Source: Tildeniella nuda ZEHNDER 1965/U140
GTDB lineage: Bacteria; Cyanobacteriota; Cyanobacteriia; Leptolyngbyales; Leptolyngbyaceae
Assembly (NCBI GenBank): GCA_019358895.1
Contig: JAHHIG010000005.1
Location: forward strand, 62,001 to 126,000
Direction: 5' to 3'
DNA: 64,000 nt
Shown here piece after piece: positions 7,637-22,520 of the stretch. The translations under genes and the position numbers were made by a program. Numbering within the stretch: position 1 is the stretch's first letter; each line of letters begins with the position of its first letter. The notes under the pieces were generated by a model. The model was given only the letters and a program-made list of their open reading frames with translations, did no database searches and was not told the DNA's origin.

Positions 7637-7864
7637 ATGAACACCCTCGATCAGGTTCTAGAAACCGCTTTACAGTTGCCGTACGAGCAGCAGGAAATGC
7701 TGATTAGCATCCTGCAAAACCGCCACTACGAAAGTCGCCGTGCCGAAATCGCTGCGGATGCCCAAGAAACTCTGGCTGCTTTCCATGAGGGTAAATTTCA
7801 AAGCCAGTCAGCCGAGGCTGTCATTGGGGTGTTGCGTCAGTCTTTGCAAGAGCCAGACGCATGA
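7637..7864 (+). CDS. Putative antitoxin of a type II toxin-antitoxin pair
   Basis: This 75-residue acidic, helical protein (LPYEQQEMLISILQNRHYESRR near the start) overlaps the next gene by 4 nt (ATGA at 7861). Size, composition and coupling match the antitoxins that precede RelE/YafQ-like toxins in cyanobacteria. No clear HTH or ribbon-helix-helix could be assigned by eye. By analogy it would bind and neutralise the downstream toxin and repress the operon. Confidence 0.7.
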   Translation: MNTLDQVLETALQLPYEQQEMLISILQNRHYESRRAEIAADAQETLAAFHEGKFQSQSAEAVIGVLRQSLQEPDA

Positions 7865-8145
7865 GGGCGTTGGTTTTAACCCCAAAGTTCCAGCGAGCCT
7901 TTCGCAAGTTTGTGAAACGCAACGCTGACCTCCAGCAACGCATTGAAGCAACGCTGCAACAAATGGAAGCAGATATCTTTGCTCCGACGTTAGGCACCCA
8001 TAAGTTGAGCGGTAAGCTGGACGGTCTGCAATCCTGCACGTGTGGCTATGACTGTCGGATTGTCTTCTCCATTGAGCAAGATGCAGAAGCCAATAGCGAA
8101 GTCATTGTTCTGCTCGATATCGGTACGCACGATGAAGTTTATTGA
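7861..8145 (+). CDS. RelE/YafQ-family mRNA interferase toxin (putative)
   Basis: The 94-residue basic protein starts inside the antitoxin stop. It shows the RelE/ParE fold pattern: a first strand with LVLTPKFQRAFRKFVKR, a helical hairpin, THKLSGKLDGLQSCTCGYDCRIVFSI where R and the preceding turn form the catalytic strands, and a final strand IVLLDIGTHDEVY ending in the His/Asp/Tyr typical of YafQ/HigB-like enzymes. Such toxins cleave mRNA in the ribosome. The pair lies directly upstream of the Roco/TIR genes. Confidence 0.75.
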   Translation: MRALVLTPKFQRAFRKFVKRNADLQQRIEATLQQMEADIFAPTLGTHKLSGKLDGLQSCTCGYDCRIVFSIEQDAEANSEVIVLLDIGTHDEVY

Positions 8146-10562: not shown

Positions 10563-11336
10563 ATGGAAAAAGATGATCTACTTCGAGCTATGAAAGAAAG
10601 CTACAACATGCTTATTAAAGCAAAAGAAGCGAAATGCCAAGAAGAAATTGAGACGGCTAGGATTGAAGAAAGAAAAATATTATTAGATGCAATGCTGGAA
10701 ATATTTCAAGGAGATTCAAGTCTTTCTGAAACTTCAAATGTTTTGAATGCTCTTAGCGAGATTCTTCTTGCATCAAAGCCTAGCAAGGAAGTTTTTATTT
10801 CATATGCCTGGGGTGATGAGCGGGAAGCATTCGTCAACCGACTTGATGCGTCTTTGCAAGAAAAAGGTATCACCATCATTCGTGACAAACGAGAAGTAGT
10901 TTACAAAGAATCGATCCAGTCATTTATGGAACGCATAGGGCGTGGAAAGTGTGTCATCGCAGTCATCAGCGATAAATACTTGAGATCTCCTAACTGTATG
11001 TTTGAGTTAGTACAAGTCTCAAAAAACGGTAAATTTCATGATCGCATTTTCCCTATCGTCTTATCAGATGCTGACATCTACAAGCCAATACAGCGAATCA
11101 AATATATTAAACATTGGGAAGATGAAACTAAAGCGCTCGACGAGGCAATGAGAGGAGTAAGCGCTGCTCATTTGCAAGGCTTCCGCGACGAAATTGATCA
11201 ATACACCGAAATCCGCAACACCATTGCCGCACTGACAGACATCTTCAAAAATATGAATACGCTCACGCCCGATCTTCATAGTCAGGATGATTTTGAGGCG
11301 TTGTTTACCGCGATCGAACGTCGGCTAAACGCATAG
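10563..11336 (+). CDS. TIR-domain protein with N-terminal coiled coil
   Basis: The 257-residue protein has a charged helical N-terminus (about residues 1-70), then a TIR domain beginning KEVFISYAWGDE (about 75-86). The alphaC segment SDKYLRSPNCMFELV puts a glutamate (E148) where NAD-cleaving TIR domains have their catalytic Glu. The BB-loop region is RDKREVVYKESIQSF. The tail has another helix pair. The gene is more AT-rich than its neighbours in its first 500 bp and lacks HIP1 sites until its last 30 bp, which suggests acquisition by transfer. Co-transcription with the Roco gene is likely (33-nt gap). NADase or cyclic-ADP-ribose signalling is inferred from the family and not shown. Confidence 0.88.
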   Translation: MEKDDLLRAMKESYNMLIKAKEAKCQEEIETARIEERKILLDAMLEIFQGDSSLSETSNVLNALSEILLASKPSKEVFISYAWGDEREAFVNRLDASLQEKGITIIRDKREVVYKESIQSFMERIGRGKCVIAVISDKYLRSPNCMFELVQVSKNGKFHDRIFPIVLSDADIYKPIQRIKYIKHWEDETKALDEAMRGVSAAHLQGFRDEIDQYTEIRNTIAALTDIFKNMNTLTPDLHSQDDFEALFTAIERRLNA

Positions 11337-11653
11337 CTACGATCGCTCCTCACAGCCAACTCTAATTCCTGCGCGATTTGCCAGTTGAATAAATGCTATT
11401 CATTCTAAGCTAATCTCTCTGCGATCGCTTCTGTTGCCTTCGTTTGTTAAGGTCGAGCGCACAAGCTTTACGCGGTGGAAAACAAGGCGATCGCCCCTCT
11501 TCCAAATTCAGTGAAGCATCACGAAACCCAACACACGTTCTGAAGTGAGCGATCGACTCTCCAAGCTAAAGTTCAAAGTGGCAAGAGAGAGATGCCGAAT
11601 ACTGAGCAAACTATCCAGAGGGTTGATCGAATGATCGTCGCTCCAGTGCCAGT
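11337..11653. other. Intergenic region after the TIR gene, no gene seen
   Basis: This stretch contains five or six GCGATC/GATCGC sites and short runs but no open reading frame with recognisable similarity. It leads into the 21-bp array. Either a lost gene or spacer DNA would look like this. Confidence 0.45.
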
Positions 11654-12010
11654 GAGCGATCGGTTGATTGAGCGAGAAAGCTGATTTTCATTTTGCTTAA
11701 GCGACATCTGATTCGACTGGAGCGTTTGTTTGTTTAGCTCGACCACTCATAAGTATTACTTAAGCATTTATTTGTTTTGCTTAAGCGTTTGTTGATTTCA
11801 CTTAAGCGTTAATTGATTTTGCTTGAGTGTTTGTTTGTTTCACTCAAGCATTCATCAGTAATGCATAAGCAATAGTCGATTTCGTTCAAGCGTTTGTTGA
11901 TTCTGCTGGTTGATTAGTGAAAAACGTTAGAGCAATCAGCTTTTTTGCTTCAGTGTTGGCTGTATTTGCTTGAACGTTAAGGCATTTCGCTTAAATGGCT
12001 ACCTGACATC
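11654..12010. repeat. 21-bp-period degenerate tandem array (array A), about 17 units
   Basis: Units start at 11696, 11717, 11738, 11759, 11780, 11801, 11822, 11843, 11864, 11885 and so on, always 21 bp apart, with weaker units extending to 11654 and 12010. The plus-strand unit begins CTTAAGCGTTTGTTGATT. Units differ by many substitutions, but no indel breaks the phase. Plus-strand frames contain frequent stops. One minus-strand frame reads as a heptapeptide repeat close to EINKRLS but has several TAA/TGA stops, so it is not an intact gene. It is not a CRISPR: there are no spacers. Confidence 0.85.
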
Positions 12011-12102
12011 AGTCATTAATATTAAAGCGGTGAGAGGCGATCGTGCCTTCTGGGTCGCTAAGTGTTTACCATAAAGGCAGTCAATCACATAAGGCTTTAG
12101 CA

Positions 12103-12531
12103 ATGCGACTACTCCACACCATGCTGCGCGTTGGCAACTTAGACGAATCTCTCAAGTTTTACTGCGATGTGCTCGGTATGACGTTGCTGCGTCGCAAAGA
12201 TTATCCCGGTGGTGAATTTACACTGGCGTTTGTGGGCTACGGCGACGAAGCCGACCATACCGTTTTGGAGCTTACCTACAACTGGGGCACTGAGTCATAC
12301 AATCTCGGCGATGCCTACGGTCACATTGCGATCGGCGTTGATGATATTTACGCCACCTGTGCCAACATTCGCGATCGAGGCGGCAAGATTACCCGCGAAC
12401 CAGGAGCCATGAAGCACGGTTCGACTGTGATTGCCTTTGTTGAAGATCCCAACGGCTACAAGGTTGAGTTGATTCAACTCCGCAACCAGACGGCAGCAGC
12501 AGAACAGCAGCCACAAGCGGCGAGGGTTTGA
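12103..12531 (+). CDS. gloA: Lactoylglutathione lyase (glyoxalase I)
   Basis: From ATG 12103 the enzyme is 142 residues, the usual length; the GTG at 12043 would add 20 unrelated residues. It has the duplicated VOC fold and all four metal ligands in context: His in [10 protein letters not shown], Glu in VLELTYNWG, His in [12 protein letters not shown] and Glu in YKVELIQL. It isomerises the methylglyoxal-glutathione hemithioacetal to S-lactoylglutathione in the cytoplasm. It is monocistronic; repeats follow its stop codon directly. Confidence 0.93.
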
Positions 12532-19708: not shown

Positions 19709-20132
<424 letters not shown>

Positions 20133-22195: not shown

Positions 22196-22520
22196 AAGCA
22201 ATTAGCTATCAGCGGTCAGCTATCAGCGGTCAGCGGTCAGCTATCAGCGGTCAGCGGTCAGCTATCAGCGGTCAGCGATGAGTGCAGGAGTCATTGACTG
22301 GTGCAATTTGCCTCTGTGTAGCAGTTGGCTGACTGCTCTTACAAGCATGAGTTTATTTTAAGAAACCAGCGGTTAAGCATCTATTCGCCGTTTAGCGCCT
22401 GCTCTGCCTCTAAAAGCTGACTGCTGATAGCTGATAGCTGACCGCTAAAAGCCGATAGCTGACCGCTAAAAGCTGATAGCTGACCGCTAAAAGCTGATAG
22501 CTGACCGCTAAAAGCTCCCT
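22196..22520. repeat. GGTCAGC and CTGATAGCTGACCGCTAAAAG repeats
   Basis: Left part (22200-22280): AGCGGTCAGCTATCAGCGGTCAG units of 7 and 14 bp. Right part (22420-22515): AGCTGATAGCTGACCGCTAAA repeated about four times at 28-bp spacing (four heptamers). The two parts are complementary, so the region can fold on itself. No gene between tab2 and pmbA. Confidence 0.88.

Follow-up and report, generated by a model that had tools for sequence, protein, structure and literature searches.

Array A, located at positions 11694–12008 (plus strand) of the analyzed window (the whole stretch of 64,000 nucleotides, part of G000, a genome of 6.08 Mb in 38 contigs), is one member of a class of tandem arrays that lie in noncoding DNA between genes, have an exact period of 21 bp (two turns of B-DNA), and occur in this cyanobacterium and in some of its relatives. 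We tentatively suggest, giving the idea slightly less than an even chance, that they are helically phased arrays of putative DNA–protein sites that would have been kept for their spacing and for a loose motif. We favor this reading over the idea that they are neutral minisatellites made of three heptamers, to which a smaller, still substantial, probability can be assigned.

Array A consists of 15 units, each of exactly 21 bp, with the consensus TGCTTAAGCGTTTATTGATTT. The autocorrelation of the region 11654–12010 has its peaks at lags 42 (0.50), 63 (0.50), and 21 (0.47), all of them above the maximum obtained at any lag in 500 Markov shuffles (0.39), which confirms the exact period reported in the preliminary description of this DNA. 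The abundance of substitutions and the absence of indels reported there were also recovered, a cyclic HMM counting 103 differences from the consensus in 311 bases (about a third) and no indel. On the other hand, the number of units previously proposed (about 17 over 11654–12010) was slightly high: the register defined by CTTAAGC starts at 11694/11696, from where all the units are in phase, and ends at about 12008, whereas the portion 11654–11693 is unsupported, no match to the unit having been found within 11652–11693. A partial higher-order pattern of five units (105 bp) is also visible, marked by a special unit (CTCATAAGTAT / CATTCATCAGTAATG) that occurs at 11738 and 11843. The first one (11738–11758, plus strand, CTCGACCACTCATAAGTATTA) has its counterpart in CATTCATnAGGAATG units lying at an equal relative position in the orthologous array of G005, and the second one (11843–11863, plus strand, CTCAAGCATTCATCAGTAATG) follows it after 105 bp.

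The relatives of the source strain include Lyngbya sp. HA4199-MV5 (G005), of the same genus, and Pantanalinema sp. GBBB05 (G016), of the same family. Twelve units of Array A (11696–11947, plus strand) align without gaps to contig C55 of G005 (L033:779–1030), with an identity of 58.7% at a unit offset of +3, compared with 0.35–0.54 at the other offsets; at the same offset, both special units are matched. Soon after this stretch, a single gap is present, and it is exactly 21 bases (one unit) long. Moreover, the two arrays share 32 bases that differ from the family consensus, versus 20 when the order of the units is shuffled (p = 0.0045), a finding that supports the existence of a single ancestral array. 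The intergenic DNA flanking Array A and its ortholog now aligns poorly, and the fourfold sites of two neighboring genes are 58% and 43% identical between the two genomes. The identity of the arrays is close to these values, and their bases have therefore diverged at roughly the pace of nearly neutral sites, with the phase being kept. From the fourfold divergence, 150–270 substitutions can be estimated for the 252 aligned bases. The bacterial indel rate is commonly quoted as one per 10–20 substitutions; at this rate, seven or more indels breaking the phase should have accumulated, and at least three at one per 50, versus none seen in the 12 units.

The census of periods, which covered parts of six genomes, revealed that the 21-bp step is not a property of a single repeat family. 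In 864 kb of G000, a lag census yielded 199 repeat clusters, 98 with period 7 and 22 with period 21; periods 14 (two clusters), 20, and 22 (one each) were rare and 19, 23, and 28 absent. As for strong noncoding arrays with a period of 15–35 bp, 15 of the 19 present in 0.86 Mb of G000 have period 21, and the noncoding 21-bp arrays of this genome embed about six unrelated unit sequences, such as GACGGGTCAATTCGGTTCCTC, CGTCAGCCATGCTCAGAGCAT, GAAACGACTATTGAGGTCTAG, CCTGTTTGAAACAGGAACGTT, and CACGACTCATCTCTAAACCTG (their unrelatedness was judged by eye). Two long degenerate arrays of about 20 units in G000 (C11:142286–142694 and C11:390126–390643, in L139 and L151) carry the operator-like palindrome CCTGTTTGAAACAGG, and in G053 (C31:201759–202161, in L162–L163), the perfect palindrome CCGAGTACTCGG is found in every other 21-bp unit, i.e., as a 42-bp dimer. 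When the four array-bearing genomes (G000 and three relatives) are considered together, period 21, with unrelated units, accounts for 22 of the 28 strong noncoding arrays in the 15–35 bp range, and three further arrays have period 42; at the same threshold, no strong noncoding 21-bp array was found in G019 and G030. A Markov shuffle yielded no peak. These data strengthen the previously advanced idea of a present or past selection on the spacing itself, since the G005 ortholog stays in phase despite a near-fourfold divergence and since period 21 exceeds all the neighboring periods across unrelated array families. The DNA-binding protein then proposed as the basis of a spacing of two helical turns fits the data, even though its binding is something that we infer.

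The analysis of phase slips, performed with a cyclic HMM from several starting points on 33 21-bp arrays, points in the same direction. No internal slip was found in 26 of them, and 13 slips were counted in total versus 2246 differences from the consensus, a figure that overcounts independent substitutions because units are copied along with their changes, which weakens the case for selected spacing. The slips are located in C20, L095, L096, and L097 (one each), in C9_135319 (two), in C11_201752 (one, near the end), and in C11_390126 (six, in the last part); those of at least three of the first four arrays probably represent one inherited step. In simulations, a quarter of the arrays were slip-free at one indel per 50 substitutions, and none was at one per 20. 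By comparison, at least one slip occurs in 34 of the 51 heptamer arrays of G000, and 17 are slip-free, bearing in mind that mutational causes may make heptamers slip more often, that the array sets were picked as clear arrays, and that several arrays are homologous.

Spacing might not be the only feature under constraint. When a consensus built solely from other arrays was scored at the strong columns of Array A and its G005 ortholog, 73–83% of the bases matching it were found to be retained versus 17–25% of the non-matching ones, a gap that holds for every base; the loose family motif is approximately CTnAAGCnTTnnTnnnTTTnG. Stabilizing selection on a loose site would yield such retention, as would conversion towards a common unit; however, strong conversion is disfavored by the order of the special units, which has been kept. 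In addition, palindromic cores exceed column permutations over 19 arrays, some of them related (p = 0.0002), the core of Array A being the palindrome GCTTAAGC.

On this basis, it can be imagined that each 21-bp unit represents a weak site for a putative DNA-binding protein, a site that in several families would have a palindromic core (as GCTTAAGC in Array A). The 21-bp step would bring successive sites onto one face of the helix and might thus allow cooperative binding along the array, in a manner analogous to that of plasmid iterons. Single sites may wear, whereas an indel would rotate the later sites away from the earlier ones and would be removed. Chromosome organization, silencing, and insulation are candidate roles for the bound array. 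The absence of coding or RNA signals, discussed below, is in agreement with phased sites; nevertheless, the variety of unit sequences is hard to square with one sequence-specific protein, no excess of a 10.5-bp sub-period (a half-unit repeat, as for simple curvature) was detected in the 21-bp arrays, and some arrays do slip, one −1 step having been inherited by several copies. A broader version of the idea, in which the 21-bp step itself is conserved in some cyanobacteria across many arrays of unrelated sequence and a protein, or a paralogous family, polymerizes on one DNA face ("bacterial satellite chromatin"), is speculative and, in our opinion, rather unlikely.

The genes surrounding the arrays give little help. 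Array A is preceded by a TIR-domain gene (10563–11336, plus strand) that is absent from the G005 locus, where an Uma2-like gene (assigned by eye from the sequence) takes its place, and is followed by a gloA-like glyoxalase gene (12043–12531, plus strand) common to the two genomes. An array was seen before gloA in only two of the seven genus members, and no consistent gene context emerges, a further difficulty for phased sites: the neighbors of the 21-bp arrays code for TIR, glyoxalase, Uma2, PIN, and other proteins, and the flanking genes are divergent, convergent, or tandem. Given these orientations, a role of the array as a terminator was rejected. The tie to Roco/TIR loci envisaged earlier turned out to be weak, only two of the approximately 14 family arrays lying within 1 kb of any of the 14 TIR matches of G000, so that the association is suggestive only. 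Several of the 71 matches to Uma2 (a putative nuclease) in G000 adjoin 21-bp arrays; three of the approximately 14 family arrays are less than 1 kb from an Uma2 gene, but this association is not convincing because two of the three look duplicated along with their gene. A YafQ-like toxin gene (window 7861–8145) precedes the Roco and TIR genes.

The strongest alternative assumes a neutral origin through expansion in 7-bp quanta: heptamers would have given rise to three-heptamer repeats, which then spread and decayed, their phase lasting for no other reason than that indels seldom arise outside homopolymers and that unequal exchange adds or removes units as a whole. Its best evidence, which also counts against phased sites, is the 7-bp harmonic, which is raised across 21-bp families taken as independent (p = 0.003; purine/pyrimidine, p = 0.0001). 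Moreover, heptamers are the commonest repeat in the G000 census, and three arrays of the window are plainly three-heptamer repeats beside heptamers: Array B (19715–19987; unit ACTCCGAGTTCAACGCTCGAT), with a clear 7-bp substructure, and two young arrays (22209–22277 and 22415–22516) whose 21-bp unit is visibly made of three heptamers. Within 19715–20130, Array B passes in register straight into a GACCGCT heptamer array, a junction that is a possible case of interconversion between 7-bp and 21-bp repeats. However, this model does not easily account for the rarity of period 14 and the absence of period 28, nor for the distribution of the two kinds of array, which vary independently between genomes: 21-bp arrays are present in G053, where 400 kb contain no heptamer array, and in G009, where 200 kb contain two, but none of the noncoding kind is found in G019 despite its 39 heptamer clusters. 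The frequent slips of heptamer arrays, seldom seen in 21-bp ones, and the selective retention of motif bases are also at odds with it. Lastly, Array A lacks the 7-bp identity of heptanucleotide repeats (lag 7 = 0.30, p = 0.31 versus column permutation); a 7-bp harmonic is present in its A/T content (p = 0.004). The two ideas are compatible rather than mutually exclusive, since the arrays might have originated by heptamer triplication and have later been retained for their spacing.

A second alternative arises from the relationships among the arrays. When 97 genomes were searched with a model (R1) built from the sequence of four units alone, the family was retrieved in 18 of them, including all seven of the genus and several other genera, with about 14 loci in G000. 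The Q-type arrays (L092, L094, L098, L099, L100, L105, L107, and L111) align gaplessly over about 11 units with 66–89% identity, and their ordered last units are common to unrelated sites in three species; a second type (L095, L096, and L097, together with L028 of G002 and C20) shares a 20-bp (−1) step that looks inherited. Both types are ordered elements rather than loose minisatellites. A short palindromic repeat (AGAAACCGGGTTTCT) is present more than once in the flanks of the L092 and L094 arrays, and in L029 and L025 of G003 and L030 of G000, near-identical units differ almost solely by transitions (e.g., 9 to 1, 8 to 0, and 13 to 1). The order of the units in the two types is what one would expect if a dispersed MITE-type element with an internal minisatellite, similar to BrickBuilt, had moved its copies and kept the founder unit order. 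We regard this as improbable, as comparison by eye of the flanks of eight Q-type copies revealed neither terminal inverted repeats nor target-site duplications and the common period of unrelated families would be left unexplained.

Still less probable is that the arrays are relics of a protein with heptad (seven-codon) repeats encoded on either strand. The minus-strand frame resembling EINKRLS with scattered stops, noticed in the preliminary description, was indeed found on reading that frame; it recurs, as does a plus-strand frame (QAVVTY) in the Q type, whose differences lean weakly to one codon position (427/306/512). The heptapeptide or coiled-coil interpretation is nonetheless disfavored by the absence of any open frame over Array A, by the lack of a third-position excess between Array A and G005 (35/42/27), and by the absence of a 3-bp harmonic across 21 arrays; the Q-type frame, in turn, lacks an obvious start, and in-frame stops interrupt it in four copies. 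Protein coding was therefore rejected in several frames, an open frame combined with a codon-position bias, as for a heptad repeat, not having been found. The least probable alternative, a structured or repeat RNA transcribed from the array, was rejected too: the better folding of the minus strand of Array A compared with shuffles (z = −4.4) is explained by its palindromic core GCTTAAGC, neighboring units have no special complementarity, consensus folding of the Q-type alignments gives next to no covariation on either strand, and neither an Rfam match in the window nor a promoter or terminator pattern in the region was found.

The meaning of these arrays depends on which force has shaped them. 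Noncoding repeats are normally recognized by their sequence, while here it is the sequence that varies by locus and the period and phase that do not change. Should the spacing be held by selection, the arrays would represent a natural experiment on helically phased DNA–protein assemblies and could lead to a new nucleoid or silencing protein; should they be a product of mutation alone, they would reveal a duplication process that prefers steps of 21 bp.

No published description of 21-bp arrays in cyanobacteria was found in the literature searched, which most subscription journals lie outside. A comparison can be made with three known systems. Plasmid iterons are Rep-binding direct repeats spaced about 21–22 bp. 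They resemble the arrays described here in being direct repeats two helical turns apart (exactly 21 bp in this case), with a spacing stricter than the bases, but the 21-bp arrays are found at many loci on long contigs with housekeeping genes, reach about 25 units, and have no rep gene or Rep domain among their annotated neighbors. Nor did a plasmid or phage origin find any match, whether in plasmid records or in viral contigs, the latter searched with the Q-type pattern only. Heptanucleotide short tandem repeats (STRRs) occur in cyanobacteria and other bacteria (PMC4679880). They are likewise intergenic, tandem, and common in G000, and 21 is three times 7, some 21-bp arrays being visible triple heptamers; however, Array A has period 21 without 7-bp identity, and 21-bp arrays exist in a genome (G053) with no heptamer array in the 400 kb covered and slip far less. 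BrickBuilt of Porphyromonas gingivalis is a MITE that contains a 23-nt minisatellite (PMC4596501); the 21-bp arrays differ from it in their period, in their many unrelated unit families, and in having no inverted-repeat ends that could be seen by eye. Yet both are intergenic and multi-copy, with units arranged head to tail, each about two helical turns long, and with ordered end units, and BrickBuilt is the nearest published parallel that we found.
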